Source: Eubacteriales bacterium (GTDB taxonomy: Bacteria > Bacillota > Clostridia > Lachnospirales > Lachnospiraceae). Taken from it: a stretch of 64,000 bases of DNA. Under the pieces are notes generated by a model. The model saw nothing but the letters and a program-made list of their open reading frames with translations, was not told the DNA's origin and ran no database searches. Position numbers and translations under genes: made by a program. The stretch's first letter is position 1; each line of letters opens with the position of its first letter. The DNA lies in NCBI GenBank assembly GCA_030524175.1, contig JAUNHC010000023.1:19954-83953 (forward strand). The letters are read 5' to 3'. Of this stretch, positions 5,567 to 63,730 are shown in pieces.

Positions 5567-5935
5567 CTATAAAATTCAGATTCGAATACAGCCAGTTTAA
5601 AGAACATTTGCTGTATTTATCATCTGTTATATTGGTTTACCTGTTCGCATTGCTTCGGTGCAGTCGCAAACCCCGCTGCTGTCACATAAAATGCTTAGAT
5701 ACTGGAAACAGCCCAAAAAGAATACGAAAACATTCCGGCGGTGATTCTTGCAGAGAGGGTTATAATTTATTTCTAAGAATGAAGAAATATATTTGCCAGA
5801 AACACGATGCTGATGGTATACTGGTCATGTATACTTATTGTGTTGTACAAGATAACTTTGGGTGGTTGTATTTATATATATTATTTGGCAATGAAGACAA
5901 TAACTAAAGCCCAGTTTTTACGAGGAGGGCCAGGT
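5567..5935. other. Gap with decayed sequence
   Basis: No supported gene. A plus-strand frame of 99 codons (5608-5907) lacks a ribosome site and looks like chance plus a remnant ending in a hydrophobic stretch. The last 30 bases (5907-5935, CCCAGTTTTTACGAGGAGGGCC) resemble a shortened cassette leader and supply the ribosome site of the next gene. Confidence 0.4.
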
Positions 5936-6088
5936 ATGAAAAACAATAAAAATGAAAATTCAAATAATAATTTAGCGATAGGAATAAGTTTAGGACTGTT
6001 ATTTGGGGTGTTGTGGGATAATTTAGCATTAGGTTTGGCTTTGGGAGTTGCAATTGGTGCATTGACCAACACTTATAAAAAGAAATAG
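5936..6088 (+). CDS. 50-residue glycine-zipper-like membrane protein
   Basis: ATG 5936 with CGAGGAGGG eight bases before it. An Asn/Lys-rich head (MKNNKNENSNNN) is followed by a hydrophobic segment with spaced glycines (LAIGISLGLLFGVLWDNLAL then GLALGVAIGAL) and a basic tail. The G-x3-G spacing suggests helix packing in the membrane. Small proteins like this recur in clostridial accessory islands; no function is known to me. Confidence 0.65.
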   Translation: MKNNKNENSNNNLAIGISLGLLFGVLWDNLALGLALGVAIGALTNTYKKK

Positions 6089-6092
6089 TAAG

Positions 6093-6137
6093 ATTCCAGT
6101 TTACCAAAGAGGAAAATTTGAATTTGTAACTGGAATT
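6093..6137 (+). repeat. Cassette leader repeat, copy 1
   Basis: ATTCCAGTTTAC (6093-6104), then AGAGG, GAATTTG, and GTAACTGGAAT (6126-6136), which is nearly the reverse complement of the start. So this copy can fold on itself with one bulge. Lies between the 50-residue gene and the gene at 6170. Confidence 0.6.
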
Positions 6138-6169
6138 TTTTGTGTTTTGCGAAGGGAGAATATTGATTT

Positions 6170-6544
6170 ATGCTTTCAATATTAGCTGCAGTATTATTTG
6201 GAGTTATAGCAACTATGACAGTTCTTGTTGCTTGCGGTTTGCCTTTGGGCGAATTTACAATGGGTGGACAACATAAAATCTTACCTAAGAAATTTAGAGT
6301 TATGGCAGTCATCTCATTTGCTGTCCAAATTTTTGCAATGATAATTGTTTTGCAAGCCGGAGGTTTGATTTCCTTGTGGTTGTCTTTTAAGGTTACTAAA
6401 TATATTTGTTTCTTTTTTGCCGCTTACCTATCTTTGAATACTATTATGAACATGATTTCAAAAAGTAGGAAAGAAAAATATGTTATGACTCCGCTTTCAC
6501 TTATAGCCGGAATATGTTTTTGGATAACGGCATTTCAGATGTAG
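6170..6544 (+). CDS. Four-span membrane protein, unknown
   Basis: 124 residues with four hydrophobic segments (about residues 3-24, 42-62, 74-92 and 105-122). A charged loop after span 1 reads GEFTMGGQHKILPKKFR. The ribosome site GAAGGGAG precedes the ATG. Similar small membrane proteins are common in Firmicutes but I cannot name the family safely. Confidence 0.7.
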   Translation: MLSILAAVLFGVIATMTVLVACGLPLGEFTMGGQHKILPKKFRVMAVISFAVQIFAMIIVLQAGGLISLWLSFKVTKYICFFFAAYLSLNTIMNMISKSRKEKYVMTPLSLIAGICFWITAFQM

Positions 6545-6577
6545 TATGTAAAATGAGGATAATCTACAGTGCGTCAT

Positions 6578-6617
6578 ATTCCAGTTTATGGTAGAAAAAA
6601 TATAATTTGGAGAAAAA
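6578..6617 (+). repeat. Cassette leader repeat, copy 2
   Basis: ATTCCAGTTTATGG, A-rich spacer, then ATAATTTGGAGAAAAA directly before the GNAT start at 6618. The GGAG is the ribosome site. Confidence 0.65.
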
Positions 6618-6989
6618 ATGAAACTAACATATAGAAAAGCGATAAAAGATGATTCGGATTTACTGATTGAGATTTATAACGCTTCATTTTATGATGATTA
6701 TGTCCGGTACGGGGAATGTCCTGGTTATGGAAAAACAAAAGAAGAAATGGAATCTTCTCTTGAGGATTCTGCCGAATATATCTTGATTTATGATACGGTT
6801 CCTGTTGGGGTGATTTCTGTTTCCGAAGAGAAAAAAGGATACTATCATCTTGGCTGTCTGTGTGTTATACCTAAATATCAAGGAATGGGAATAGGCACGC
6901 AGGCATTTTAATATATGTTATCTGTTTGTCCTGACTGGAGACAGATTACACTGGTTACGCCTGCTGACAAAGAAAATTTGAAGCTTTAG
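6618..6989 (+). pseudogene. GNAT acetyltransferase, broken
   Basis: 97 codons read as a GNAT N-terminal two thirds: MKLTYRKAIKDDSDLLIEIY, then the acetyl-CoA loop region VIPKYQGMGIGTQAF, where the P-loop-like Q/R-x-x-G-x-G/A sits. It is cut by TAA at 6909-6911. The same frame continues as YMLSVCPDWRQITLVTPADKEN, which is what a GNAT strand 5/helix 4 should look like, so a CAA-to-TAA change is the simplest reading. A second stop and loss of the C-terminus follow. Probably inactive. Confidence 0.75.
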
Positions 6990-7019
6990 GGCTGAATAAA
7001 TTGAAAGGTAATTATTGTT

Positions 7020-7481
7020 ATGGAAAAGACGGAATTAAATTTTGTGTGTACCGGAATGAAAACGGGTAAAAAAATCCCGATTGAATATACTGGGCGAGGA
7101 CAAAACATATCGCCAGAGTTTATTATTAAAAATTTGTTGCCCAATGCCAAAACCTTAGCCATTACGTTGGAGGATTTGACACATCCAATAAAAAAATTCA
7201 CCCATTGGATTATTTGGAATATTCCTGCAACTGATAAAATCGAGAAAGGAATTCCAGCGGGTAAGATAGTGTTGGGAAATGCAGTTCAAGGGGTTGGATA
7301 TGGTTTCCATCAATATGCTGGGCCTAAACCTCCGAAAGGGAAAAAGCATATCTACCTCTTTACTATCTATGCTTTGGATTGTGAATTAAATTTAAGTGCT
7401 AATTCTATGAAAGGAACTTTTTTAAGAAGGGCAAAAGGTCATATTATTCAAAGCGGTAATGTAATAGGTGAATTTGAGTAG
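7020..7481 (+). CDS. YbhB/YbcL family (PEBP, Raf-kinase-inhibitor-like) protein
   Basis: 153 residues, the normal length for bacterial PEBP-like proteins. Family features in order: G-x-x-ISPEF near residue 30, the TLAITLED-x-x-HP segment (residues about 45-58), FTHWIIWNIPA near residue 65, and the GGYG-like GVGYGFHQYAGPKPPKGKKH at about 92-111 that forms the ligand-binding pocket with HIYLF. Intracellular, with no signal peptide. Family members bind phosphorylated or anionic ligands; the role in bacteria is unclear. AAAGG upstream is a modest ribosome site. Confidence 0.85.
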   Translation: MEKTELNFVCTGMKTGKKIPIEYTGRGQNISPEFIIKNLLPNAKTLAITLEDLTHPIKKFTHWIIWNIPATDKIEKGIPAGKIVLGNAVQGVGYGFHQYAGPKPPKGKKHIYLFTIYALDCELNLSANSMKGTFLRRAKGHIIQSGNVIGEFE

Positions 7482-7485
7482 CACA

Positions 7486-7557
7486 CCGACAGATGATTTT
7501 TGGGATGATAATATCGGAGGGAAAGAATTGCGGGAAGTCCGATATATCTACAAATAA
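7486..7557 (+). pseudogene. Duplicated tail of a GNAT gene
   Basis: About 72 bases nearly identical to the last 72 bases of the GNAT at 8360-8848 (8777-8848), with about four differences, including the shared ends ACCGACAGATGATTTTT and GTCCGATATATCTACAAATAA. It has no gene body in front of it. This is a leftover 3' end from a lost or recombined copy. Confidence 0.85.
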
Positions 7558-7574
7558 TTTGTTGGAGGAGATGT

Positions 7575-8297
7575 ATGAAAATATATAATGCAGGAAACAG
7601 AGTTATGAATACATATCTTTACCAGATTAATGATGGGTTTGTAATGATTGATACAGGCTATGAAAATAGTTATACAAAATGCACTTCGTCTATGAAACGA
7701 AAAGGAATTTCTTGGGCCAATATTAAATATATTTTTCTAACACATGCCCATGATGACCATGCCGGTTTTCTGAAAGAGGCATTGGATAAGCATCCCAATA
7801 TTACTTGTATTATAAGTGATAAGGCATTTTCAGTTTTGGCAAGAGGACAAAATTCCTTTGAGGGTGGCTGCAGTAGCAGGCTTGCACTGTTCTTTTGTCG
7901 CATTATGAAGTTATTGGGCAATGGAAAACATCTTTTTCCTGCAATAGATGAAACCTATAAAAAAAGATTTATAGAGATAACCAAAAATAATGTTTCTGGA
8001 ATTGAAAAATTATTATCTGGCAAAATATTATTCACACCAGGACATACAGCGGATTCTATTTCCTTAAAAGTGGAAAATCAGATATTTTGTGGAGATGCCG
8101 CAATGAAGGGTTTGCCGAGCTTACATAGGATAACGATATGGGTAGAGAATAAAAAAGAATTTGAAAATTCATGGGAAATATTGTTGGATGAAAATGTAGA
8201 TTATATTTACCCAGCACATGGACAACGATTTAAAAGTAATGATTTGTATAAGTTCAAAACTGAAATTAGTAAGCTTAAGTTATATCTTTTGAGGTGA
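7575..8297 (+). CDS. Metallo-beta-lactamase-fold hydrolase
   Basis: 240 residues, full length. The zinc ligands are clear: THAHDDH at residues about 56-62, a later TPGHT with its His near residue 157, FCGDA with its Asp near 174, and a final PAHGQR with its His near 215. The N-terminus MKIYNAGNRVMNTYLY and VMIDTGYE fit the fold. Family members hydrolyse thioesters, lactones or phosphoesters; the substrate here is unknown. GTTGGAGGAGATGT gives a strong ribosome site at 7560-7572. Intact cassette gene. Confidence 0.9.
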   Translation: MKIYNAGNRVMNTYLYQINDGFVMIDTGYENSYTKCTSSMKRKGISWANIKYIFLTHAHDDHAGFLKEALDKHPNITCIISDKAFSVLARGQNSFEGGCSSRLALFFCRIMKLLGNGKHLFPAIDETYKKRFIEITKNNVSGIEKLLSGKILFTPGHTADSISLKVENQIFCGDAAMKGLPSLHRITIWVENKKEFENSWEILLDENVDYIYPAHGQRFKSNDLYKFKTEISKLKLYLLR

Positions 8298-8312
8298 CAA
8301 CAATATCTTCAA

Positions 8313-8359
8313 ATCCCAGTTTAACAGAGAGGAGAATTAGAATTTATAGAGGGGAGAAA
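8313..8359 (+). repeat. Cassette leader repeat, copy 3
   Basis: AATCCCAGTTTAAC, AGAGAGGAG, then TAGAATTTATAGAGGGGAG ending next to the GNAT start at 8360. Same order of blocks as the other copies. Confidence 0.65.
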
Positions 8360-8848
8360 ATGGAAATTCGATATATTACACCTACCCATAATAGAATGGC
8401 AATAAGCAAGATATAAGAGGAAAGTTGGAAATGTGCATATAAAGGAATAATACCTCAAGCCTATCTTGATTCGATTCCTAAGGGTCGCTGGTCGTCAACC
8501 TTAGATAACCCAAACTGGAAAACATTGATTTGTATTGATAATTGCAAAATTGTGGGAACAAGCAGTTTTTGTAAATCCCGTTTTGAGCAGTTTCAATACT
8601 GGGGTGAAGTTATTTCGATATATCTGCTACAGGATTATATGGGTAAAGGCTATGGAAAAACTCTTATGAAATCTACCCTTTCAGATTTAAAAATGCAAGG
8701 ATACGAAAATATCTTTTTATGGGTTCTTGAAGAAAACATCAGAGCAAGGTATTTTTATGAACAATTTGGTTTTTTACCGACAGATGATTTTTTAGATGAT
8801 AATATCGGGGGGAAAGAATTGCGAGAAGTCCGATATATCTACAAATAA
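8360..8848 (+). pseudogene. GNAT acetyltransferase with one in-frame stop at codon 19
   Basis: 163 codons in one frame from ATG 8360 to TAA 8848. The only fault is TAA at 8414-8416, inside a stretch that reads ISKI-stop-EESWKCAYKG; related GNATs usually have Tyr there, so TAT-to-TAA is likely. Downstream the family signature is intact: YLLQDYMGKGYGKTLMKSTL (acetyl-CoA loop G-x-G-x-G/A) and VLEENIRARYFYEQFGF. Re-initiation seems unlikely without a nearby start. Its last 72 bases are duplicated at 7486-7557. Confidence 0.8.
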
Positions 8849-9038
8849 CGATAAATTCGAATTGACCGAGCAGGGAGAAGGATGCTTCTTGACTTACCGG
8901 CAACTCGGAAGTTAGTAAGGTCTTAATGAATGATTTGATTGCGCATATAGATTGCGTTCAAATAACGGTGAATGCTTATGGCTATCTAATTATATCTCAC
9001 AAGAATTAATGACTAAAAATAATTAAGGAGGAACAGAT

Positions 9039-9446
9039 ATGATTGAATATAAACATATAAAGGATTTTGAAGAAGCGCAAATAAAAGCTCTCTTTAAATC
9101 TGTTGAGTGGTTTTCTGGAAATTTTCCTGAAAAAATAAGATTAGCGTTACATAACTCAAGTAAAGTAATTTCAGCTTGGGACAATGATACACTGATTGGA
9201 TTGATTAGAGGATTGGACGATGGAATATGGCAGGCTAGCATTGATTGTTTGTTGGTTCATCCAGACTATCAGGGAAAAGGAATTGCCTCTACTCTGTTAA
9301 AACAGCTTGTAACAGAATATGAGAATTTCTTATATATTGTCGTTGTGCCGGACGAAAAGAAAAACATAACTTTCTATGAAAAAAATGGTTTTACAATCAT
9401 GCCAGAAGGGACACCGCTGCAAATTCGGGGGAAAGCTTGGATTTGA
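9039..9446 (+). CDS. GNAT family N-acetyltransferase
   Basis: 135 residues, intact. The acetyl-CoA motif VHPDYQGKGIASTLLKQL lies at about residues 76-93 and the closing KNITFYEKNGF near 107-117. The substrate is unknown. TTAAGGAGGAACAGAT is an excellent ribosome site. The 190 bases before it hold only scraps, one reading like another acetyltransferase tail. Confidence 0.88.
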   Translation: MIEYKHIKDFEEAQIKALFKSVEWFSGNFPEKIRLALHNSSKVISAWDNDTLIGLIRGLDDGIWQASIDCLLVHPDYQGKGIASTLLKQLVTEYENFLYIVVVPDEKKNITFYEKNGFTIMPEGTPLQIRGKAWI

Positions 9447-9499
9447 GTTTTTTGGTCAACAAAAAGCAGTAGTACGCTTTATAAGCATAAGCCTAACAA

Positions 9500-9547
9500 A
9501 TTCCAGTTTGTCAAACTGAAAAAATCGCAGTTTTGAAAGGGGAAAGT
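9500..9547 (+). repeat. Cassette leader repeat, copy 4 (best preserved)
   Basis: ATTC then CAGTTTG-T-CAAACTG (9504-9518, perfect inverted repeat), A-run, TCGCAGTTTTGAAAGGGGAAAG, then ATG 9548. The exact 15-base palindromic block recurs at 63686-63700. Confidence 0.75.
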
Positions 9548-9886
9548 ATGGAAAAGAGTATTGCATTTTGTGGTTTGGTGTGTTCGCAATGTCCTGTATA
9601 CATTGCAACCAAGACGAATAATGAAGAACTAAAAGAGAAATTAGCAATCGAATATTCTACAGACACATTTGAGTTTGTAAAAGAAGATATGAATTGTACG
9701 GGGTGTCACTCAGTAGTTGGAGTAAATGAGAAAATGTGTAAAGAATGTCTTATGAGAAACTGTGGTATGCACAAAAGCATTTCTCATTGTGCAGAATGTA
9801 ATGAATACCCATGTCAGTACATAAACAGTTATGTGCCAACTGGAAGTGATAATCGCAAAATGTTAGATGAACTGGTAAAGAAATAA
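9548..9886 (+). CDS. DUF3795 cysteine-rich protein
   Basis: 112 residues from ATG 9548, with GAAAGGGG just upstream. The opening IAFCGLVCSQCPVYIAT and the repeated Cys pairs (CTGCH, CKECLMRNC, CAECNEYPC) are characteristic of DUF3795, which probably binds metal; the biological role is unknown. Cytoplasmic, intact, with its own leader repeat. Confidence 0.88.
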   Translation: MEKSIAFCGLVCSQCPVYIATKTNNEELKEKLAIEYSTDTFEFVKEDMNCTGCHSVVGVNEKMCKECLMRNCGMHKSISHCAECNEYPCQYINSYVPTGSDNRKMLDELVKK

Positions 9887-9934
9887 ATCCTAGTTTAGTC
9901 AATTGAAAAAACAAGATTTGGAGAGGAAACACTT
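9886..9934 (+). repeat. Cassette leader repeat, copy 5
   Basis: AATCCTAGTTTAGTCAATTG, A-run, CAAGATTTGGAGAGG, then ATG 9935. The palindrome is weakened to AGTTTAGTCAATTG but block order and distance to the start are kept. Confidence 0.6.
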
Positions 9935-10177
9935 ATGTTTTTTATATAGAAAGAACAAACATTAGACATGCAAATAGATTACATCACCTTTGGCAGAGGA
10001 AAGAAAAATCTGATAATGATTCAAGGGCTTAGTACGAGCGGTATTAAAGGAGCGGAGCTATCTCTTGCATTTATGTATCGCATTTTTGCAAATGATTATA
10101 AGATTTATTTGTTTGACCGTACACGGTATTTGGCAAATTTGAAATCGCCCTTTGGCTATCAAATTTTGCTGAGGTAG
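9935..10177 (+). pseudogene. Alpha/beta hydrolase N-terminal fragment with early amber stop
   Basis: From ATG 9935, five bases or so after the leader repeat, the frame reads MFFI-stop (TAG 9947-9949) and then continues in the same frame as KEQTLDMQIDYITFGRGKKN, LIMIQGLSTS and IYLFDR. This is the first third of an alpha/beta hydrolase up to strand beta-4. After about 10120 the sequence is foreign. Doubly broken: premature stop and truncation. Confidence 0.7.
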
Positions 10178-10318
10178 ATTTGGAGTATGAGCGTCTGTCA
10201 ATGCTAAGTGTGCAGTTTCCTACGGGAGAACCCATCACTTATCCTTTCGGTATCCGCAATTTTTATGTAGCTGACCCAGAGGGGAATTTGCTTGAAATTG
10301 GAAGTACAAGTGAAACAT
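10122..10318 (+). pseudogene. VOC/glyoxalase-family C-terminal fragment
   Basis: In another frame the sequence becomes GKFEIALWLSNFAEVDLEYE, then GIRNFYVADPEGNLLEIGS to a TAG at 10316-10318. The YVADPEGNLLE-type strand is the hallmark metal-ligand end (Glu) of vicinal-oxygen-chelate proteins. It has no start and is joined out of frame to the hydrolase fragment, so two cassettes have recombined here. Confidence 0.75.
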
Positions 10319-10335
10319 AGGCTAGAAACTCTACA

Positions 10336-10380
10336 AATTTCAGCTTGTAGTGGGAAGATTTGAATTTAGAGGATAAGAAT
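10336..10380 (+). repeat. Cassette leader repeat, copy 6
   Basis: AATTTCAGCTTGTAGTGGGAAG then ATTTGAATTTAGAGG, followed by ATG 10381 whose frame (MWIILV) stops at once. Leader of a lost gene; about 170 bases of decayed sequence follow before the DUF1349 gene. Confidence 0.5.
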
Positions 10381-10558
10381 ATGTGGATAATATTGGTCTA
10401 GTTTATTTGGGGAAAGTAAGCATAAAAAAATGGATTTATAACATCATTGATAATAGTTCTTGGTAACAAAACTACATCAAAATTTAAGCAATTAAAAAGA
10501 ATCATTATGGAAGAATTAAAATCTATTATGAAAGTATGAATTTATGGAGGAAGAAATT

Positions 10559-11161
10559 ATGGACTTAAGTAAGTTTCAGTGGACGAGAGAACCGCTCGAT
10601 TATGAAATCATTGACTGCAGAGTTGAAATCACTACAAAACCTCATACTGATTTATGGCAGAGAACATATTATCATTTTCAAAACGATAATGCACCAGTAT
10701 TTCAAATGGAAACAGATGAAAAGTTCTTCAGTTTTGTGGTCAAGACGGAATTTGATGATAGTCATCATAGGTTTGACCAATGTGGAATTGTAATGTATTT
10801 AGACAGCGAAAATTGGTTGAAAGCTTCTATAGAATATGAAAATGAAGATTTTCAACACTTGGGCAGCGTGGTTACAAATCATGGATATTCCGATTGGGCG
10901 ACGACAGAAATCAACACTAACATAAAGTCAATGTGGTATCGGTTTAGTCGAAGAGAAGATGACTATTGTATAGAATGTTCAGAGGATGGAGTTGTATATA
11001 AACAGATGAGAATTTGCCATATACACAAAGGAAATGAAGCTATAAAGTTTGGCATTTATGCGTGTTCTCCCGAAGAATCATCATTCAAGGCGATTTTCTC
11101 AAATATGGAAATTACAGAATGCATGTGGAAAGCACATGGTGGTCAACAACCTGACGATTAG
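10559..11161 (+). CDS. DUF1349 domain protein (YesU/regulation-of-enolase-like beta sandwich)
   Basis: 200 residues from ATG 10559; the upstream ATGGAGGAAG at 10544 is the ribosome site, not the start. The body is a jelly-roll/concanavalin-like beta sandwich as in DUF1349: FVVKTEF, QCGIVMYLDSENWLKASIEY, the SxWA-like DWATTEIN and a final EESSFKAIFSNMEI strand. The related fold binds carbohydrate; no catalytic site is evident. Cytoplasmic. Function not established. Confidence 0.85.
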   Translation: MDLSKFQWTREPLDYEIIDCRVEITTKPHTDLWQRTYYHFQNDNAPVFQMETDEKFFSFVVKTEFDDSHHRFDQCGIVMYLDSENWLKASIEYENEDFQHLGSVVTNHGYSDWATTEINTNIKSMWYRFSRREDDYCIECSEDGVVYKQMRICHIHKGNEAIKFGIYACSPEESSFKAIFSNMEITECMWKAHGGQQPDD

Positions 11162-11199
11162 ACCGCCTTCTGTTAGTCTAAAAAAGCGAGGTCTGTAAA

Positions 11200-11607
11200 A
11201 TGAATATAATAGAAGAAGTACATGAGTTATATTGGAATAATGATATAAATTGTGCAAGAACCATTTTGATTTGCCTGGGTAGACTCTTTAATATTGAATA
11301 TAATGCACAAACACTCCATTCGGCTATCGGTTTGCATGGCGCTGGAGGATTCCGAGCGCAGTGTGGGCTGGTTGAGGGCGGATTAATGTTTATTGGAATC
11401 TATTATAGCCAGCTTGGCAAAACTGAGGAAACAATTGTGTCTGTCTGCTACGATTATGCAGAAGCATTTAAACAGCGGTTTGGTTCATTAAGCTGTTACC
11501 ATTTACGTCCTGATGGATTTTCTGAAAACGACCCACCGCATATGTGTGAAAAACTAACTTGTGAAGCAGTATCTTTCGCATACGAGTTTATAAGAAAACA
11601 GCCGTGA
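11200..11607 (+). CDS. C_GCAxxG_C_C family protein
   Basis: 135 residues. It has a spaced Cys and a glycine-rich motif resembling the family core (residues about 46-64, GLHGAGGFRAQCGLVEGGLM), then CYDYAEAFKQRFGSLSCYHL. Two further Cys (MCEKLTC) follow. The family is thought to bind a metal or redox centre; the role is unknown. AAAGCGAGGTCTG upstream is a fair ribosome site. It is the last intact rightward gene of the array. Confidence 0.82.
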   Translation: MNIIEEVHELYWNNDINCARTILICLGRLFNIEYNAQTLHSAIGLHGAGGFRAQCGLVEGGLMFIGIYYSQLGKTEETIVSVCYDYAEAFKQRFGSLSCYHLRPDGFSENDPPHMCEKLTCEAVSFAYEFIRKQP

Positions 11608-11630
11608 CATCATGTTACGACTGTTCATCA

Positions 11631-11930
11631 TCATAATAATATAAAAACAATAAATAGAGTAATCAATGCTATTAAAATTATAATCAAAAAAGAAAGAGCT
11701 ACTAATTTCCCGATTCTTTTTACCTGGGCACGCCCTTCTGCCTCTAAGTTATCCATGTCCCCTTAGATATGCCGCAGATTTCAACTTTTCCATTCTTTTT
11801 CATCTGCTGATATACTTTTTTCTGATTACTGGTAACAAAGTACAGTTTCCCCTCAAAACTGCATACTGCTCCAAATGGACGGACATGCGGCTGTCCGTTT
11901 TCCTCGGTAGAAAGATAAAATGTACCACAA
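11631..11930 (-). pseudogene. Pyridoxamine 5'-phosphate oxidase-family fragment, with a 41-codon overlapping tail
   Basis: On the minus strand 11930-11740 reads FYLSTEENGQPHVRPFGAVC, then EGKLYFVTSNQKKVYQQM and KVEICGISKGTW, the N-terminal half of a PPOX-type flavin-binding protein, without a start. It stops at TAG right after GTWIT. A one-base shift continues as LEAEGRAQVKR, and an ATG at 11756 could start a 41-residue peptide in that frame ending in one hydrophobic segment (stop 11633-11631). I read it as a frameshifted, chimeric remnant; a real micro-protein is possible but less likely. Confidence 0.6.
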
Positions 11931-12053
11931 GAATAGAAAAAGGGTTCCAGATACGTTTTGGATAAGAGGGCAGGGGGAAAGCAGGCTTGAAAAGGCAGAA
12001 TGAAACTGGGTGCATTCCATTAAAAATATATTTACTCGTCAGAGCTGGGTACC

Positions 12054-12082
12054 TTGACTTTTTATACAATGCTAAGTATGAT
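12054..12082 (+). promoter_or_regulatory. Promoter of the ABC exporter
   Basis: TTGACT (12054-12059), 17 bases, TATGAT (12077-12082). Between it and the gene lies a pair of direct repeats (core AAATGAACAG, near 12120-12131 and 12141-12151) that could be an operator. Confidence 0.6.
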
Positions 12083-12162
12083 AAATTTATGCTGTACATG
12101 AGAGGTTTAAATGTGCCATGAAATGAACAGAAATGTGTCATAAATGAACAGAGGTGAGAAGT

Positions 12163-13917
12163 GTGAAAACGAAACAGATTTTATTAAATGTATATCGATT
12201 ACTGGATCGGAAACAGAAAATAACTTTTGTAGTCATCGTGTTTATTATGGCCATCTCCTCCATATTAACTCAAATCACTCCCAAAGCAATCGGCTGGTTA
12301 ACGGATGATATTCTTTCTCAGACAGAACTTTACTTTTATAAAATCATTCCAATCCTGCTTATCATTATGATTGTCAATGTGATAAATGAACTTATAAAAA
12401 TCTTGCGGAGGATCCTGGTTGAAGATATTGCAACCAAAACTGAAAAAAAGGCAAGAGGAATGGCCATTTCTTCCTTGCTCAAAGCACCTTTAACCTATTT
12501 CAAGGAGCATATGACAGGAAATATCCATGGAAGATTAAATCGGTGTTTAGAAGGCACCGTGAAACTTGAAAAACTAATCTTTATGGATTTGGCTCCCGCT
12601 GTATTCAATAGTGTGGCAGCCATCGTTGTCATCTTTACTACATTGCCGGCAAGTCTGGCAATCCTAATGCTTCTGGTTGTACCTATTGGGATCATCATCG
12701 TTTTTAGACAGATCAGTACGCAAAAAGGAATCCGAGTAGAATTATTGGAAACAAAAGCAAACATGGACGGGGCGATTGTTGAACTGCTTAATGGAATAGA
12801 AGTTATCCGAATGACAGACAGCAATACCTTAGAAGAAAAAAGATTTAACACGAAATCAGAATATCTGAGACGGAAAGAAATGAAACACCATTTGCAAATG
12901 GCCAAATACGATACTTTGAAATTCATGAACGAAATCTTTTTTACGGTTCTGATGATTGGTACTTCAGCATATCTAGCGACACAAGGCATCATTAGTGTTG
13001 GAGCTGTTTTGACATCCTATCTTTGTTTTTCCCAGCTGATCAAGCCCTTGCAGGAACTTCATAGAATTCTGGATGAACTTTCAGAGAGTTTGATTTTGGC
13101 AGAAGATTTTTTCAAAATGACTGTAATTTCTTGTGATTTTTCTTATTCCTATAGTTTAAGCAATATGCAAAGGCCAGTGGATTGTCCGTATATTGTCAAC
13201 ATACATAATCTGAATTTCTCTTACAATGAGGAGAAAAACATATTAAAAAATATAGACTTGTCCATCGAAAAGGGGGCCTTTTGGGGGATCGCCGGACCCA
13301 GCGGCTGCGGGAAATCATCGCTGATAAAAGCCATATGCAAACTGGAACCGTGTGAGGGGTCTATCCATATTGATGGTACGAATATTAATTCCCTATCAAG
13401 AAAAGAGTTGTCACAAATCATCGCACTGGTGCCCCAAAATCCGTTCTTGATTGCTGGGACTATATTGGAGAATATCTGCTATGGTTTGGAAGACAAGCCA
13501 ACTGAAAAAGACGTCAGGGAAGCTATCATCAAGGCAAATCTTTATGATTTCATTAACAGCTTACCAGATGGGATTAACACTAACATAAGTGAAGGCGGCA
13601 GTAACTTATCGGGCGGTCAAAGACAGCGGATTGCAATTGCCCGGGTTTTTTTAAGAAAGCCTAAAATCCTGATTTTAGATGAAGCAACCTCTGCACTGGA
13701 TAATACCTCTGAACGATATATTCAAAATGAAATCGAGGTGTTAAAAAACAAAGATAACATGACAATCCTATCCATTGCACATAGGCTTACCACATTGAAA
13801 AACTGTGATAAGATTATTGTTATGAACCATGGACAGATTGTGCAGGTGGGAAATTATACGGACTTAATCGAAAAAGAAGGAATATTTAGCGATATGTATT
13901 ATGGAAAACTGAAATAA
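12163..13917 (+). CDS. ABC exporter half-transporter (fused membrane and ATPase domains)
   Basis: 584 residues from the GTG at 12163, seven bases after GAGGTG; an in-frame GTG at 12154 overlaps the ribosome site. Residues about 1-310 hold six membrane spans of a type IV (B-family) exporter. The ATPase domain follows: Walker A GPSGCGKSS near residue 378, Q-loop LVPQNPF near 420, signature LSGGQ near 481, Walker B ILILDEATSALD near 502 and the H-loop AHRL near 538. It should act as a homo- or heterodimer exporting a lipid, drug or peptide. No peptidase domain is present, and the substrate is unknown. Confidence 0.92.
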   Translation: MKTKQILLNVYRLLDRKQKITFVVIVFIMAISSILTQITPKAIGWLTDDILSQTELYFYKIIPILLIIMIVNVINELIKILRRILVEDIATKTEKKARGMAISSLLKAPLTYFKEHMTGNIHGRLNRCLEGTVKLEKLIFMDLAPAVFNSVAAIVVIFTTLPASLAILMLLVVPIGIIIVFRQISTQKGIRVELLETKANMDGAIVELLNGIEVIRMTDSNTLEEKRFNTKSEYLRRKEMKHHLQMAKYDTLKFMNEIFFTVLMIGTSAYLATQGIISVGAVLTSYLCFSQLIKPLQELHRILDELSESLILAEDFFKMTVISCDFSYSYSLSNMQRPVDCPYIVNIHNLNFSYNEEKNILKNIDLSIEKGAFWGIAGPSGCGKSSLIKAICKLEPCEGSIHIDGTNINSLSRKELSQIIALVPQNPFLIAGTILENICYGLEDKPTEKDVREAIIKANLYDFINSLPDGINTNISEGGSNLSGGQRQRIAIARVFLRKPKILILDEATSALDNTSERYIQNEIEVLKNKDNMTILSIAHRLTTLKNCDKIIVMNHGQIVQVGNYTDLIEKEGIFSDMYYGKLK

Positions 13918-14370
13918 AAACGCTTGTTCCATGATCTTCCATGATCAGGCTTCTTTCTCTTATTTTTATACATGGAGAATACCAGCAAAATTCCGCTCAC
14001 TGCCCCTGAAAATAAATAGGACTGAATCATTGGCGTAAAATTATAGGTTCCTCCTGTCCTGAAATCAATAAAATCACTGCTGATATAACTCATGGGCAGC
14101 AGGGCTGCAATGGATTGCAGAAATGCAGGAAGCGGGTGGGTCTGAATGCCTATCATCCCACACAGGATCATGGATCCAAAGTACAGGACCATTGCCACTA
14201 CGTAGGTAGGACCGAATTTTTTCAACAAGCTGGACAGCCCATGGGCAATGGCGAAAAACATGGCTTCCAGCAGGTAGATGCATCCAAGGAGGCAAAGGGC
14301 TGAGGACAGCTTTGGTATCTTAACTACTTGAAGTTCTTCCTCAAAATGTATATAATGTCTAAGATTGCAT
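13899..14370 (-). pseudogene. ABC-2-type membrane permease, 5'-truncated remnant
   Basis: On the minus strand an open frame without a start runs from about 14370 to TAA at 13899, overlapping the exporter end by 19 bases tail-to-tail. It reads KIPKLSSALCLLGCIYLLEA, AMVLYFGSMILCGMIGIQTH, PAFLQSIAALLPMSYISSDF and GAVSGILLVFSMY. These are hydrophobic spans and the LP-x-SY region typical of ABC-2 permeases such as lantibiotic-immunity or multidrug types. The N-terminal half is gone. Confidence 0.65.
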
Positions 14371-14488
14371 CAATACAGACTTTACGAAAAATCATCTTTC
14401 TGTATCAGGCAATGTTGCATAATACTGTATAATTATGTATAGCAGCGCAGATTTGAAAAAAGCGCTATTTGTGACCTAACCCCTGTTT

Positions 14489-14517
14489 TTGACCCGTTAT
14501 ATATCAAAGTGTATAAA
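14489..14517 (+). promoter_or_regulatory. Promoter upstream of the radical SAM fragment
   Basis: TTGACC (14489-14494), 17 bases, TATAAA (14512-14517), about 105 bases before the ATG at 14623. The TTGTGACC word occurs nearby at about 14469, 14879 and 14895. Confidence 0.5.
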
Positions 14518-14622
14518 CATACAGTGCAAATAAGGGCTTAAAATGCATATAAAGAGGGGTATTTTATCTTTACAAGGCAACTTCAAATTTGTGAATCAGC
14601 TACAAAAAACGAGAGGAAAAAC

Positions 14623-14793
14623 ATGAGAAAATTAGCTTTAAGTGATGAAATATTACTAAAAATTGATAAATCCGCACGCTATATCGGCGGTGAAGTTAAT
14701 TCGGTAAATAAGGATGTAAACGAAGTGGACGTGCGGTTTGCTATGTGCTTTCCGGATGTCAACGAACATATGTTTCTGCATAATGCAATATAA
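14623..14793 (+). pseudogene. N-terminal fragment of a B12-binding radical SAM protein (TIGR03960-like)
   Basis: 56 codons: MRKLALSDEILLKIDKSARY then IGGEVNSVNKDVNEVDVRFA and MCFPDV, after a GAGAGG ribosome site. From memory this is how TIGR03960-family proteins begin (PARYIGGE-N-S-V-x-KD, VRFAFCFPDVYEIG). After CFPDVNEHMF the sequence diverges and stops, so only about a tenth of the gene remains. It may mark where chromosomal sequence was broken near the left end of the big element. Confidence 0.7.
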
Positions 14794-15104
14794 CAATATA
14801 TAGTTATTTCTGATGATGGATAATACTACATGTAGGGAATGCACATAACAAAATAGTACCATCCATCATAAAAAAGTATTGTGACCCAAGCTGATTTGTG
14901 ACCCAAATATAGCATTTTTGAAATATGATTTATGCAACTTATACAATGAAAATGAATAGTCAAGCGCTTAATCCCAATTTAAAATAAATGGAGGCTGTAG
15001 CATATCATTATGATGTGAAACGGTCTCTTTTTTATAAGATGTTACAGTTGATAAAATGGTCATAAGATTTATAGTATATATATATTAGGCAGAAGGGAAG
15101 TGAA
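14794..15104. other. Non-coding junction zone at the left end of the conjugative element
   Basis: No gene seen. It contains two of the three TTGTGACC words (about 14879 and 14895) and AT-rich sequence. The left boundary of the element should lie here or slightly to the right, but I found no matching direct repeat at the right side (63.5-63.7 kb). Confidence 0.4.
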
Positions 15105-15335
15105 ATATCGTTAGAAAGTGTTAAAATCAATCCATCTTCAACGGATGTGTTGGATCCACTGAAGACCCATCAAATTACGGAAGACGATATTGTGAACAAA
15201 ATTCGTGATTTGCAGAAGGCTGATGAAGTTTTCACAGAGGATGCAACAGAGTTACTGAATAAAATAATAAGAGAAAATAAGATGGATCTTGATATCGAGA
15301 CTCAAAATCGTATTTTGAAACAAATAAATGTCTGA
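15105..15335 (+). CDS. Small soluble protein, apparent AUA start
   Basis: The frame is fully open upstream of the GTG at 15147. The best start by ribosome-site spacing is ATA at 15105, six bases after AAGGGA (15093-15098), giving 76 residues; GTG 15147 would give 62 and has no ribosome site. Acidic and helical (ITEDDIVNKIRDLQKADEVF, TEDATELLNKII). No known family. Ends just before a strong terminator, so it is its own unit. Confidence 0.55.
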   Translation: MSLESVKINPSSTDVLDPLKTHQITEDDIVNKIRDLQKADEVFTEDATELLNKIIRENKMDLDIETQNRILKQINV

Positions 15336-15402
15336 TTAAAAATTTGATTTATATCTCCTAATCCAGGAAATTTTAATTCTACAATTTACAATTAACCTAA
15401 AG

Positions 15403-15439
15403 GGTGCTGTTTCACACTTCGTGTGGCAGCACCTTTTTT
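15403..15439 (+). terminator. Intrinsic terminator
   Basis: GGTGCTG (15403-15409) pairs with CAGCACC (15427-15433), with an inner CACAC-TTC-GTGTG stem, then six T. Ends the preceding small gene. Confidence 0.9.
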
Positions 15440-15763
15440 CTGTAGAGCCTGAGCAATAGTTCTGAAGACTCAATCTTACAACATTTCTAAAAAAATAAAA
15501 AAAATTCTCTTTTTTTATAGAAATCCACGTAAACCAAAAAAGTTATTACATGTACTTCGAACCTTGACAACAAAATATTGAATTTCGTATCAACCGTCAG
15601 CCAGAAGTGATATATCGTAGGGGCATCCATAGCATCCGCTTGATATAATTTACTGCATGGTTAGGAAAGAGGAATACAGCTTTATGCTGAGATATGCTTC
15701 AGGTGGTGTATCTTGATATCCGATAGGGATGTTTTGACATAGTAGAGATAAGGAGATAACAGG
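15440..15763. other. Intergenic, AT-rich, before the next unit
   Basis: No gene. TTGACA occurs at 15563, without a good -10 partner, and TATAAT at about 15643. GATAAGGAGATAAC at 15746-15759 is the ribosome site of the 51-residue gene. Could hold a regulatory or transfer site; nothing decisive is seen. Confidence 0.3.
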
Positions 15764-15919
15764 ATGATTATTTTGGGATTAGCGGGCATTATAAGTGCAT
15801 TTGTTTTATGGTGCTGCATTAAAGTGGGAAAAGAAAGTGATAGAGAATTGGAAGGATTATGGGAGGAAGAAGGCCCTGATCGTGACCGGGATAATCTGTG
15901 CAGAAAGGATGATAAGTAA
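15764..15919 (+). CDS. 51-residue protein with one N-terminal membrane span
   Basis: MIILGLAGIISAFVLWCC is a single hydrophobic span, followed by a highly charged tail (KVGKESDRELEGLWEEEGPD...). GATAAGGAGATAAC precedes the ATG. It may belong with the small DUF3789-like proteins of clostridial conjugative elements, but that is a guess. It ends three bases before the next gene, so they are co-transcribed. Confidence 0.6.
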   Translation: MIILGLAGIISAFVLWCCIKVGKESDRELEGLWEEEGPDRDRDNLCRKDDK

Positions 15920-15921
15920 AA

Positions 15922-16470
15922 ATGGGCAGGAATGGTGTTTTAACGGAAAGATACGTGGGAGAAGAGAATACGGTTTACCATGATATTATATCTTTATTTA
16001 AGATTTATCGTGCGGTAAATTGGAGGATGCAGATAAAGATAAATCAAGTGAAACATCGAATCCAGAGTGAATATGGCACCGATATTGATACTTTTTTGGA
16101 TAGTGTGTATCAGGCCGGCATGGATATTAATCAGGACCTGGAAGATGTACAGGATACAATAGAGTCGATTAATCGGTCAAATAAATTTTTGAAACTGATT
16201 GATGAAGCAGTAGAATTAATGAGAAAGTACCATCCGCAGGGAGAGCGGTATTATTGGGTTTTATATTATAGTTATATGTCAGCTTATAAAGCAGAGAACG
16301 TTGAAGAAATTTTAGACAAGCTGGAACCCCATTTTCCAAGAATACATAGGGCAACTTATTTCCGGTGGCGTGAGCAGGCTTTTGCGGCTGTGAATGACAT
16401 TTTATGGGGCTGTGAGGAGGAAAGCCAAAGGATTATGGAATACTTTATGAAGAATTTTGAACAATCCTAG
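15922..16470 (+). CDS. Putative ArpU/sigma-like transcription regulator
   Basis: 182 residues. The N-terminal half is helical (INQVKHRIQSEYGTDIDTFL...). The C-terminal part reads LEPHFPRIHRATYFRWREQA then FAAVNDILWG, resembling the helix-turn-helix of phage ArpU/RinA-type late regulators (a serine- or arginine-rich helix followed by TYYRW-K/R-x-A). DNA binding is thus inferred. Encoded just upstream of the ParM operon promoter, it may control it. Confidence 0.5.
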   Translation: MGRNGVLTERYVGEENTVYHDIISLFKIYRAVNWRMQIKINQVKHRIQSEYGTDIDTFLDSVYQAGMDINQDLEDVQDTIESINRSNKFLKLIDEAVELMRKYHPQGERYYWVLYYSYMSAYKAENVEEILDKLEPHFPRIHRATYFRWREQAFAAVNDILWGCEEESQRIMEYFMKNFEQS

Positions 16471-16478
16471 AAATACTG

Positions 16479-53422: not shown

Positions 53423-55093
53423 TTACGCGCTGGTGGCGGCGCTCTCATTCAGCCAGCTTTGCAGGTCTACGGCCCCGATTTTGTGGTAGACGATTTCCAC
53501 CTTTTGGCGGCGGTTGCCCCGCGCCTGCTCCGGCTCATGGATGATGATTTTGTCGATGAACTCATGGACGATGGCCGGGGTAAGCGTCTCAATTTCCGTA
53601 TAGCGGCGCACCGTGGCGAGAAAGCTGTCCACGCCGTTTGCCTGTTCCTCCTGGTCGGTCAGTTCCGTTTCCAGCGCGTCCAGCGTGTCAATCAGCGCGG
53701 CCTGTTCCGCCTCGAATTTCGCGGACAGCTTCAAATACCGCTCGTCGGGAACCTTGCCGCTGGCGTTGTCCAGATACAGCTTTTCAATCAGCGTGTCGAT
53801 TTCGGAAATGCGGCGGCGGTGCTTCGCGGCGGCCCGCTTTTTGGCGGAGGCGTCCCGCGCCTGTTCCTGCTTGCTCTTGTCCATCACAAGCCGCACAAAT
53901 TGTTTTTCGTGCCGCGAGATGAACGCCAGCAAGTCCCGCAGTTCTTCCAGCACAAGCTGTTCCAAAACCGCCTCCCGGATAAAGTGACAGGTGCAGCTTC
54001 CGCCCTCCTGATACTGAACGCCCTTGCGGTAACGGGAGCAGGAGTAGGAACCCTCATAGCGGACAACGGTTTTCGCCTTGTTCCAGACGGCGCGGGTGTG
54101 GTAGTACAGCTTTTCGCTGCAGTCGGAGCAGTAGGCCACGCCGGAGAACAGGCCCGGATTGCCGTAGCGCGGGGCGCGGCGCTTGTGTTCCCGCATTTGG
54201 CGGACGATTTCCCATGTCTCCGGGTCGATAATGGCCGGGTGGGTGTCCTCAAATACAAGCTGATTTTCCACGGGGGTCTGCCGCACCTTTTTGTCCTTAT
54301 AGGATTTCGTCCACGTCTTGAAGTTCACCGTTTTACCCGTGTATTCCGGCGCGTCCAGTATCTTATGTACCGTCGTGGTGTTCCAGAAATACGGGTCTTT
54401 GCAGGGCCGCGCCTTTTTCATAATCCCATGCTCGTACTTGTAGGCGCTGGGGTTGAGGACGTGTTCCCCGTTGAGGATTTTTGCGATCTGCGCGGGGCCG
54501 TTCCCGTCCACCGACAGGCGGAAGATACGGCGCACAACCGCCGCGCTCTCCTCGTCGATGACAAGCCGTTTCGGGTCGCCCTCGTCCTTGCGGTAGCCGT
54601 AGGGCGGGATGACCGCGAGGCGTTCCCCGCTCCTGCCCTTGGCCTGCCAGACGGCCCGGATTTTCTTGCTGGTGTTGCGGACGAACCACTCGTTAAACAG
54701 GTTCATCATGGGCGTGAAGTCGTTTTCCCCGCGCTCGGTGTCCACGTTGTCGTTGACCGCAATCAGCCGCACGTCCTTTTCCGGGAACAGGATTTCCGTC
54801 AGAACCCCCACCTTGAGGTAGTCGCGCCCGAAGCGGCTCATGTCCTTGACAATGACCGTCGCCACCTTCCCGGCCTCCACTTCCTCAATCATCCGGGCAA
54901 AGGCGGGCCGCTCAAAATCGGCCCCGGAATAGCCGTCGTCATAGATGAACTCATAGAGCGTGAAGCCGTTTTCCTCGGCGTATTTGGTGAGGATTTTCCG
55001 CTGATTGATAATGGAATTGCTGTCCCCGGCAAGCTCGTCCTCGTGACTCAAGCGTCCATATAAATAATTGATTTTGTCAGGCTGTCTATTCAA
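53423..55093 (-). CDS. Large serine recombinase
   Basis: 556 residues. YLYGRLSHEDE holds the catalytic serine near residue 16. The resolvase core continues with IYDDGYSGADFERPAFARMI and VKDMSRFGRDYLKVG with its catalytic arginines. Recombinase domain from about 190 (VIPPYGYRKDEGDPKRLVID), zinc ribbon CSDCSEKLYYHT ... CSRYRKG near 325-365, coiled coil near 400-480, and an end LQSWLNESAATSA. It moves the GC-rich element in and out. Typical of Tn4451/TndX-like elements of Clostridia. Confidence 0.92.
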   Translation of the reverse strand: MNRQPDKINYLYGRLSHEDELAGDSNSIINQRKILTKYAEENGFTLYEFIYDDGYSGADFERPAFARMIEEVEAGKVATVIVKDMSRFGRDYLKVGVLTEILFPEKDVRLIAVNDNVDTERGENDFTPMMNLFNEWFVRNTSKKIRAVWQAKGRSGERLAVIPPYGYRKDEGDPKRLVIDEESAAVVRRIFRLSVDGNGPAQIAKILNGEHVLNPSAYKYEHGIMKKARPCKDPYFWNTTTVHKILDAPEYTGKTVNFKTWTKSYKDKKVRQTPVENQLVFEDTHPAIIDPETWEIVRQMREHKRRAPRYGNPGLFSGVAYCSDCSEKLYYHTRAVWNKAKTVVRYEGSYSCSRYRKGVQYQEGGSCTCHFIREAVLEQLVLEELRDLLAFISRHEKQFVRLVMDKSKQEQARDASAKKRAAAKHRRRISEIDTLIEKLYLDNASGKVPDERYLKLSAKFEAEQAALIDTLDALETELTDQEEQANGVDSFLATVRRYTEIETLTPAIVHEFIDKIIIHEPEQARGNRRQKVEIVYHKIGAVDLQSWLNESAATSA

Positions 55094-59672: not shown

Positions 59673-59703
59673 AAAAACGGATGCTTACATGGCATCCGTT
59701 TTT
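59673..59703 (+). terminator. Intrinsic terminator after the GNAT gene
   Basis: AACGGATGC (59676-59684), seven-base loop, GCATCCGTT (59692-59700), flanked by A5 and T5. Works in both directions. Confidence 0.88.
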
Positions 59704-59767
59704 GCTGCATATACCCATCTGTTGACCGTCTTTTTCGTTGATTTTCGCGTGGTAAAGTTGCTCCCTT

Positions 59768-60844: not shown

Positions 60845-60857
60845 TAATTTATGTGCT

Positions 60858-61253
60858 TTGACTCAATACAAAAAAATGGCAATCAGGCAATATGCCAGAA
60901 AGGGAATCATGAGAAGAAAAGTAGATTTACAGGAATTAGCGGAATTTATGAGGGATGCTGCATATGGTGATAACCAGATACATCATATAAACTGGGCATT
61001 AAACGTGATTCATCCGAGAACAAATGAGGGAGATATCGGATATTCCGGAGGGATGTGGAATCCAGGGGCGTTCGTTAGCCTGTCATTTTCGTATAGTCAG
61101 TCTGCAGGTATAACTGACTTCAGGATGTGGATCGACCACAATGAAATCAAACCTTGTTTTGGTGGTAAACCCAATTTTGAAGAGTTCAAAGAAACCGTTA
61201 TAGGGGCATTTGGAATTGAGAAACTATATAGAGCAGAAAACAAACCGGATTGA
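60858..61253 (+). CDS. Hypothetical protein between the two pcfJ genes
   Basis: 131 residues from TTG 60858, or 125 from ATG 60876. No good ribosome site, so it may be coupled to the pcfJ stop 14 bases upstream. Contains RKGIMRRKVDLQELAEFMRD, INWALNVIHPRTNEGDIGYS, GGMWNPGAFVSLSFSYSQSA. Small and soluble. Family not recognised; position suggests a PcfJ-associated role. Confidence 0.55.
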   Translation: MTQYKKMAIRQYARKGIMRRKVDLQELAEFMRDAAYGDNQIHHINWALNVIHPRTNEGDIGYSGGMWNPGAFVSLSFSYSQSAGITDFRMWIDHNEIKPCFGGKPNFEEFKETVIGAFGIEKLYRAENKPD

Positions 61254-61314
61254 GAAACTGGAAGTGATTCAAGAGTAGAAGAATTTCCTTACGAAACATT
61301 CAGTTGGAGGAATT

Positions 61315-63468
61315 ATGAATAAATGTGAATTATTAAAGTTGGCTCCGCCTGAAATCACAGCGGAGATGAAGGAATTTGCCCGGAAGGATATATTAATGAT
61401 GCGTAGGCCTGGAAATAGTCTTACTTATCAATATGGACGTTATTATCGTGTCAAAACCGAAGGAAAATATCTCTTAGTTTCCATTTTTCTGACTGATTAG
61501 CTCAAGAAAGGTAATGAACGGCCTAAATACATTCTTTTTATTGAAAAGGATGCAGATTCCTTTCTTACATATATACCAGAAATTGGTACATGGAGCAACG
61601 CGATGCTGGTAAATTTGGACTGGCCGGAATATGCTTTGGGGGCAGAAACTTATATAAGTCAGGTAGATTTGAAAATGTGCCGAAAATATCTTGATATTTC
61701 AGATATCACAGGACTGAGAGAGTACCAATATCAGGTCAGGGAACGACAACTGATAAAACGGTACAAAAAAATAACAGATCCTTGGGATGAAAAGATGAAG
61801 AGTGTACCAAATGTACCAAAAGACTGGATAAAATGGGTTACAAAAAGTGGAATTCGTGAACATTATATTTTTTACGAATATCAAAAGGGTGGTGCAAAAG
61901 AAGGATATTGCACTCATTGTGGCAGAAATGTCCGTATACAGTCACCGAAATACAACAAAAAAGGAACATGCAGTTCTTGTGGATATCCCATACAATATAA
62001 ATCTATAGGGAAGTTCCGTTCACTTTTCACTGAATGGCATGCAGTCTACCTGTGTCAACGTACCAAAAATGGAGGTATTGTTCTCAGAAGATTTATGGCA
62101 TATGCATGTTATAGGCGGGAAAAGTATAGAGTACCGGAAATCAGCATTAGAGAAACAAAACGAACATTTTATGATCATAGATTAAATAACGAAAGATTCT
62201 ATTATGGAGAGTTTAAACAAAGGGAGTGCCGTTGGATTAAAGACTCCTATGCTTCAGCATACGATTACTGTTACTGCGGTGCGAAAGGAATGGTATACCC
62301 CAGAACAATTTACGATTTGAATAAACATGAGTTAAAGTATACAGGACTGCTGCATATGGTACGAAAGTGTGGGTACATGGATCCGACGAAGTATCTATAC
62401 CAATTAAATGTCATTCCGATTTTAGAGCAGATTGTGAAAGCGGGACTTTATAACCTGGCAAATGAAATATATGATGAGTGGAAATCTCCTGAATTCTATA
62501 ATGAACAAAAAGGCGGACTTGCTAAGATACTTGGAATTGACAAGCAGCGTTTGAAACGCCTGAGGGGATTGAATGGGGGAACGGATATACTGAATTGGCT
62601 TCAGATTGAAAAACAGCTCAATATAAATATGTCGGACGATTTGATTTGTTGGTATATAAAGAATGGACAGTCGCCTAATAATTTCCAGTTCTTATTAGAC
62701 CGAATGAGTTTTGTGCAGATAAAAAATTATTTGGTACGACAACAGAAGGAGAACCACGAAGAAATAGGGGATATTGTGAATACATGGAAGGATTATCTTT
62801 CCATGGCGGATAGACTTCATATGGACGTGTACGATGAAATTGTGTACAGACCTTCTGACTTGTATAAGCGTCATGAAGAAGCAGTATGCTCAATTGAGAA
62901 ATTAGAGTTGTCTGTTACAGCTACAGAATTACTGGAGAAGTATCCATTTACGAACGAGGTGATATCCGGTCTTCAGGAAAAATATGGGTTTCAAGACAGT
63001 ACCTATACAATCCTTGCTCCAAAGGACGTTGAAGACATACTTAAAGAGGGGATGTATTTACACCATTGCATAGATAAAAAAGAAGAATATTTCGAACGCA
63101 TCAACCAAAAAGAAACCTATATCCTCTTCCTTCGGAAAACAGAACAGCCAGATAATCCATATTATACACTGGAAATTGAGCCAGGGGGAGTGATACGCCA
63201 AAAACGAACGGAATATAACAGGCAGAAAAAAGACATTAAAAAGGCAGAGCCATTTCTGAGATCTTGGCAACTTGAAATTCAGAAACGCCTAACAAAAGAA
63301 GACAGGCAGCTAGCAGATCGGAGCAGACGATTAAGATTAGATACATATAAGCAGATGCGAATGAAGCAGGTTGCTATTCATGGTGGACTTTATCAAGGTC
63401 AATTACTGGCCGACGTGCTGGAGGCTGATTTGATGGATGTGCCGCAGGAAGGTTATGCTGCAGCATAA
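61315..63468 (+). pseudogene. pcfJ: PcfJ-family gene, complete except for one amber codon
   Basis: One frame of 717 codons from ATG 61315 (after TTGGAGGAATT) to TAA 63468, broken only by TAG 61498-61500 in the context SIFLTD-stop-LKKGNERPKY. An ATG at 61603 opens the remaining 621 codons but has no ribosome site. Features: zinc ribbon CTHCGRNVRIQ...CSSCGYPIQ near residues 200-225, long helical middle, and the PcfJ signature YLHHCIDKKEEYFERINQKE then YILFLRK near 580-610. PcfJ acts with the relaxase in enterococcal pheromone plasmids; the biochemical role is unknown. Confidence 0.85.
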
Positions 63469-63505
63469 ATATGAATGTTTGATTTTTGAATCTTATACAT
63501 TTAAT

Positions 63506-63531
63506 AGCCGTGACAGTTTTCTGTCACGGCT
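63506..63531 (+). terminator. Perfect 11-bp hairpin after pcfJ
   Basis: AGCCGTGACAG-TTTT-CTGTCACGGCT. Only a weak T-rich tract follows. It probably marks the end of the element's last transcript. The rest of 63532-63681 holds no gene. Confidence 0.65.
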
Positions 63532-63681
63532 GATTAGGTTTTGTGAACTGTACGTCACAAAGCCGGAAGAGGCAGGATGGAGCAATTAGGAACATAGACA
63601 TCAACTGTGTGATATGATATGCTATATGATAGCTTTAGAAAGATGTACTTATGGTATAAGCCAAGGAAAAGCAATGACTAA

Positions 63682-63730
63682 AATACAGTTTGTCAAACTG
63701 GGAAAAAGCAGAATTTGACGGAGGTTTTTA
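63682..63730 (+). repeat. Cassette leader repeat, copy 7, beyond the conjugative element
   Basis: AATA then CAGTTTG-T-CAAACTG (63686-63700, identical to the block at 9504-9518), A-rich spacer, GCAGAATTTGACGGAGG, and ATG 63731. Shows that the cassette array, or the same kind of array, continues on the right. Confidence 0.75.

Follow-up and report, generated by a model that had tools for sequence, protein, structure and literature searches.

To our knowledge, no system other than the integron is well established as a means of collecting and swapping single genes. Passenger elements resembling miniature inverted-repeat transposable elements (MITEs) are another relevant comparison; they carry short inverted repeats and are moved in trans. 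The locus considered here is an array of short genes in a 64,000-base stretch (the window) at the right end of contig C12 (83,953 bases; JAUNHC010000023.1) of a genome of the Lachnospiraceae (G000, 5.95 Mb). A preliminary description of the window had defined this array by a conserved leader of roughly 45 bases joined to swapping genes, on both sides of a 48-kb element. The repeat is a junction, not a leader: its left half, CAAATTCCAGTTT, closes one cassette, and its right half, AAAATCGGAATTTG with a ribosome site, opens the next. With a probability of roughly 0.55, these repeats bound gene cassettes of a non-integron kind that are moved by a candidate recombinase acting in trans. The unit is well supported, as are its ends, and the enzyme and the reaction are what we infer.

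Cassette ends and their junctions

The unit that recurs has the form 5'-(GTAGAAC..)AAAATCGGAATTTG - ribosome site - one gene - CAAATTCCAGTTTATCGAG-3', and its two ends are imperfect inverted repeats. Since the units stand head to tail in one direction, what looked like a leader within an array consists of a cassette's tail joined to the head of the cassette that follows. The earlier notion of a conserved leader joined to swapping genes therefore holds for the right half, which travels with the downstream gene, and fails for the left half. This half forms the tail of the gene upstream, and it persists behind lone cassettes that no other cassette follows. In a survey of 130 intergenic stretches from 16 hand-chosen loci, in which a half was counted when at least 9 of 14 letters agreed, both halves were present in 64 stretches as against 20.8 after shuffling. 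Right halves ended 11-16 bases before a start codon in 35 of 90 cases and left halves began no more than 9 bases from a stop in 19 of 69; the remaining positions were scattered, many of them at chance level.

The points at which identity between arrays breaks off lead to the same arrangement. The 124-amino-acid (aa) gene at 6170 recurs on another contig of the same genome (C92, 98%), in Fusobacterium vincentii (NZ_CP084075, 92.9%) and in G246 (90%), and the shared stretch begins inside the repeat in each case, at window positions 6111, 6119 and 6123, respectively. In Fusobacterium, the match ends at the next site, continuing there as AAATTGGAATTTGTAGAGG, and a second site-like stretch comes after the next gene, a methyltransferase. 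Likewise, the identity of 94-95% between the glyoxalase piece of the window and its counterpart in the G307 array ends in the middle of the following repeat. Because these breaks fall inside repeats, the left half is to be read as a cassette tail and the right half as the next head. A change of gene order at or near the repeats, which the preliminary description had made a touchstone of mobility, is seen in several pairs and not in all.

The two-gene stretch of F. vincentii (L193, 5780-7470) is flanked by copies of GTGGTTTAGAAAAGCCAG; close by is a hairpin resembling an IS605-type end, and the record is named a plasmid, yet is 2.1 Mb in length. By eye, no cassette ends were seen at orthologs of the 124-aa protein from three further genomes of the order.

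The repeats themselves are real, and all eight places named earlier were confirmed by direct reading. Seven of them were also recovered by an independent profile made of 26 copies from other genomes only, which had first been found with a model from the copies of the window and its own genome; these 26 rows were drawn from a 54-row alignment (A4), own-genome rows and rows past the first 40 being left out. Five sites, all on the forward strand like every feature given below, were matched at E<=1e-3: 9497..9541 (match at 9498, E=1.7e-7), 6091..6130 (6093, 3.1e-6), 9885..9926 (9885, 4.4e-5), 63680..63723 (63686, 9.6e-5) and 8310..8352 (8311, 8.6e-4). The site at 10334..10372 was matched weakly (10335, E=0.023, 11.5 bits), and that at 6576..6614, on which the original model had been trained, gave 8.0 bits (6578, E=0.29), which is not above shuffles, the best of ten shuffled windows reaching 8.6 bits. 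The eighth place, a weak site at 5907..5935 seen by direct reading, was not recovered, being absent from the best 30 matches of the profile in the window. An additional match lay at 3507, in front of a DUF6064 gene (10.5 bits). In a crude alignment scan, 6093, 9500 and 63682 scored 49, 48 and 47, respectively, against 33 for the best of five shuffles; 10336 scored 33, and 5907, 6578, 8313 and 9886 remained below the threshold of 32.

Lone cassettes and a slot in a conjugative element

Array genes have homologs in other genera, and some of these occur singly, bearing both ends between unrelated flanks (partly by eye). Both ends are present on the lone units L157 (G126), L172 (G114) and L156 (G405), on L162 (G337), where the 3' end is weak, and on L109 (G268), whose inverted ends are perfect over 13 bp. 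When 74 homologs were compared with 244 control open reading frames (ORFs) from the same loci, an end being counted at 11 or more of 14 letters, the 5' end was found with 8 homologs and 5 controls and the 3' end with 7 homologs and 2 controls; without four listed rows from the array of G307 itself, the homologs with a 5' end were 6 of 70 and those with a 3' end 4 of 70. Some genes that bear one or both cassette ends occur in arrays and also alone, and array genes recur singly in other genera and in one case in Fusobacterium, several of them changing neighbours in or near the repeat.

In a conjugative element, one slot is filled by different genes from genus to genus and is vacant in two genomes. 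The slot was recognized around L157 of G126, where it lies between a RepA_N gene and a helix-turn-helix (HTH) regulator, and 94 of 299 family genomes contain matches to the surrounding 2.2 kb. Among 20 loci of this one element, taken with G126 as the query, the left flank stops just behind a promoter-like sequence resembling TGGTAAAATGATAA (by eye), and the right flank resumes near the ribosome site of the regulator. In addition to the query, both cassette ends are found in the slots of G290, G440 and G133, the last on two contigs and with the 3' end also after the gene; G129 has the 3' end only. Other inserts occupy the slot in G147, G285, G186, G380, G262, G360, G282 and G411, of which the last two have one gene in common, preceded by a site-like stretch. 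The slot is empty in G429 (10 bases between the flanks) and G134 (21 bases), and five loci (G306, G000, G381 twice and G441) diverge earlier and are uninformative. Slot genes also connect to the arrays: a pyridoxamine-oxidase-like (PNPOx-like) gene of the Blautia schinkii array is 82.6% identical to that in the G133 slot, and a second PNPOx-like gene, of the G307 array, is 82.3% and 80.5% identical to genes in the G440 slot and in G405, respectively.

Arrays in the window and in related genomes

The left edge of the array lies further left than had been described, at a DUF6064 gene (3547..4149, Pfam) whose cassette begins at about 3516. Its 5' end (AAAACTGGAAGTTG and a ribosome site, 3516..3540) was matched by the independent profile at 3507-3538 (E=0.048), and CAAATTCC follows the stop codon, the 3' end (CAAATTCCACATTTTTCG, 4152..4170) standing directly after it by eye. 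A look-alike gene is present at 4304-4906 of L074, so that two arrays of one genome each hold such a gene behind a site (by eye). Just left of the array as previously drawn, a stretch of about 96 bases (5697-5792) has matches of 78-81% in several genomes of the same genus, at most three per genome, and no match in Rfam.

In the site at 6091..6130, the upstream gene's tail meets the head of the cassette with the 124-aa gene (6170..6544), which has no Pfam match and has other neighbours in C92, F. vincentii and G246. After the weak site at 6576..6614 come a truncated GNAT gene (6618..6911; Pfam and direct reading), a PEBP-family gene (7020..7481) and a metallo-beta-lactamase-superfamily gene (7575..8297; homologs in G334 at 84% and G381 at 82%). 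The last two have no complete repeat in front. Identity with G381 continues into the left half of the site at 8310..8352, behind which lies a GNAT gene with an early in-frame stop (8361..8848). The 3' end of this gene (8777-8848) has a degraded copy at 7484-7555, in front of the 7575 gene, a trace of a lost neighbour. A possible minimal site (AAATTCGAATTGA, 8849..8867, by eye) follows the stop, with 13 identical letters at 63940; this stretch and its counterpart at 63937-63950, both after stop codons, may be sites that have lost their middle. A further GNAT gene (9039..9446) is followed by the site at 9497..9541 and a DUF3795 gene (9548..9886) with 77.6% identity to a gene of the G306 array. 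Downstream of the site at 9885..9926 is the glyoxalase-family fragment (10117..10320; E=9e-4, below the Pfam cut-off) that matches a G307 cassette, and beyond the site at 10334..10372 are a DUF1349 gene (10544..11161) and a C_GCAxxG_C_C gene (11200..11607), both assigned by Pfam. The genes of the array had been called often broken, which is correct for those at 6618, 8361 and 9935. To the right of the conjugative element, the site at 63680..63723 precedes a 65-aa gene (63731..63928; Pfam match below the cut-off). The picture of copies on both sides of the 48-kb element thus comes down, on the right, to a single copy near the end of the contig, which is also the end of the window. No exact direct repeats of at least 12 bases shared by 11000-16500 and 63300-64000 were found.

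A model search of 244 relatives at E<=1e-3 placed sites in 16 genomes, including 10 of 64 in the genus; two of the 16 (G115 and G193) are, judged by eye, probably coding sequence. Arrays were read in the window, on three more contigs of the same genome (C92, C49 and C102), in B. schinkii, in G306 (C55) and in G307; the hosts of arrays include Blautia as well as further Lachnospiraceae. The B. schinkii array (DSM 10518, G077, listed in the genus of G000; C2, JNKJ01000003.1; Lachnospiraceae) has five genes with four model matches, and that of G307 spans 14 kb, with about 25 short genes all pointing the same way and six model matches at E<=2. Their contents include GNATs, ankyrin, DUF1697, DUF2716, maltose-acetyltransferase-like, hydrolase, PEMT/ICMT, signal peptidase II and PNPOx-like genes. 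In a search in which only the best two places per genome were scored, DNA common with the window array was found in 78 of 250 family genomes and with the G307 array in 154 of 250, mostly as single genes, and much of it is ordinary orthology, DUF1349 above all; within the genus, 33 of 64 genomes share DNA with the array. A search of 61 relatives with two mismatches allowed brought up mostly background, and L020 was rejected as a copy of the site, being located inside a transporter gene.

Proposed mechanism, alternatives and known systems

Units would be excised and inserted singly through conservative site-specific recombination, with the crossover in mid-site, and the circle junction of an excised unit would read CAAATTCC..GGAATTTG. 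Insertion behind a promoter or behind another cassette would give expression, the recombinase would act in trans, and conjugative elements may carry cassettes between species. The earlier suggestion of a cassette system that operates without an integron integrase is supported by the changed neighbours, the slot of the conjugative element and the integrase search. It is tempting to speculate, at somewhat less than even chances, that a second cassette system exists independently of integrons, with double-strand sites composed of inverted ends round a short crossover core, a putative recombinase acting in trans, chromosomal arrays in Lachnospiraceae that hold as many as tens of genes, a platform for exchange on conjugative elements, and a reach into Fusobacteria.

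The search for an integron integrase (TIGR02249) gave no match over the cut-off in any of 61 relatives including the genome of the window, in agreement with the preliminary description; 14 tyrosine recombinases of this genome were matched below the threshold. None of its 15 PF00589 matches lies on C12, C92, C49 or C102. G307 has 46 tyrosine-recombinase (PF00589) matches, the nearest about 50 kb from its array; many of them are about 300 aa in length and scattered (L127, L138-L141). An integrase fragment adjoins the B. schinkii array. A divergent integrase pair beside the G061 array was considered as an analogue of intI and discarded, as 11 further loci with homologs (10 genomes) contained no model site. 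Recombinase trios were noticed by eye in some array-bearing genomes, and a large serine recombinase (Resolvase, Recombinase, Zn ribbon, DUF4368) is encoded at 53423-55093, within the conjugative element of the window.

That these searches yielded no enzyme weighs against cassettes moved by a recombinase in trans, and several further observations point in the same direction. Both ends are lacking from most homologs of array genes, and many intergenic stretches within arrays, chiefly in the lower half of the G307 array, contain no clear site. Exact copies are rare, exact-pattern scans of species genomes returning 0 loci and 1 locus (B. schinkii). On its right side, the identity of the 124-aa gene breaks off short of the next site of the window, by about 26 bases in C92 and about 10 in G246. 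In the covariation test, in which identical rows were counted once (52 of 54), pairing amounted to 81.1% against 80.8% after shuffles, and the halves do not covary.

Some of these observations are what would be expected of hot spots for accessory genes without dedicated machinery, at which illegitimate or short-homology recombination would join genes and the ends would represent microhomology and a selected ribosome-binding region. The ends are absent from most homologs, some breaks lie off the site, and the slot of the conjugative element also carries genes without clear ends. This explanation is nevertheless rather improbable, as lone units in unrelated flanks keep both ends and the 3' end is conserved behind stop codons, where it has no part in translating its own gene. 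Transposition of passengers, in which elements with short inverted repeats and a gene would be moved by a transposase in trans and arrays would be adjacent insertions, would account for the inverted ends of lone units, among them the perfect 13 bp of L109. It seems slightly less probable still, since the ends abut in arrays and share a short middle, the genes of the arrays that were read point in one direction, and no target duplication was noticed by eye in the printed lone units, which was not a systematic test.

The palindromic consensus made folding and covariation expected, and neither was found; readings as an attC-like site or an RNA are therefore given little weight. RNAalifold yielded no consensus fold, and the ends of one cassette match each other no better than chance (permutation p 0.92). 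As DNA, the sites had folding energies mostly like those of shuffled sequence: 13 of 18 were slightly more stable, the mean z was -0.56, and two lay below -2. A worn integron, with attC sites decayed past recognition and an integron integrase elsewhere, would share the architecture of the arrays and could explain the strong variation among copies as well as this slight folding advantage. The absence of an integrase over the cut-off in the 61 relatives, the lack of covariation and the lack of GTTRRRY boxes at the ends make it very improbable. A generic leader or regulatory RNA unlinked to mobility is just as remote and is largely contradicted by the lone units. It would suit the ribosome site in the right half, with its spacing of 11-16 bases from the start codon in 35 of 90 detected cases, but the left half goes with the gene upstream and persists after lone genes, and neither structure nor covariation supports it. 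Rfam gave no match at gathering scores in the window and none at E<=1 in 5500-11700; the processing or regulatory RNA that the preliminary description had considered is accordingly not upheld.

If non-integron cassettes are indeed moved in trans, they would provide abundant gut Clostridia with a route for exchanging one gene at a time, linked to conjugative elements and reaching Fusobacterium once, and a new recombinase would remain to be found. The open-access literature in PMC contained no description of such cassettes that we could find, which is no proof that none exists. Integrons (IntI, attC, attI; CALIN arrays) share with the present arrays the unidirectional rows of small unrelated genes, a site after each gene, lone cassettes, a slot behind promoter-like sequence (by eye) and the typical contents (GNAT, glyoxalase-like and DUF genes). 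Co-directional single genes, each with a following site, were found here as well, some intergenic stretches being without a recognizable site. By contrast, the sites described here are about 38-60 bases in length and show no attC-like folding or covariation, and no IntI over the cut-off was found in the 61 relatives; as both IntI and attC-like folding were looked for in vain, the system is not classed as an integron. Its hosts are Lachnospiraceae, and integrons are very rare in Lachnospiraceae and Firmicutes (PMC9024848). The present units also have terminal inverted repeats, although imperfect ones, and resemble MITE-like passengers in having short inverted ends round a gene; they differ in that the ends abut in arrays with a shared middle, in one direction, and no target duplication was noticed by eye. 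The conjugative element with the slot is presumably of the Tn916/Tn1549 type, the genes read there being RepA_N and HTH only. Accessory slots of such elements likewise hold variable single genes at a fixed place, whereas some of the genes inserted here bear ends that recur in chromosomal arrays elsewhere.

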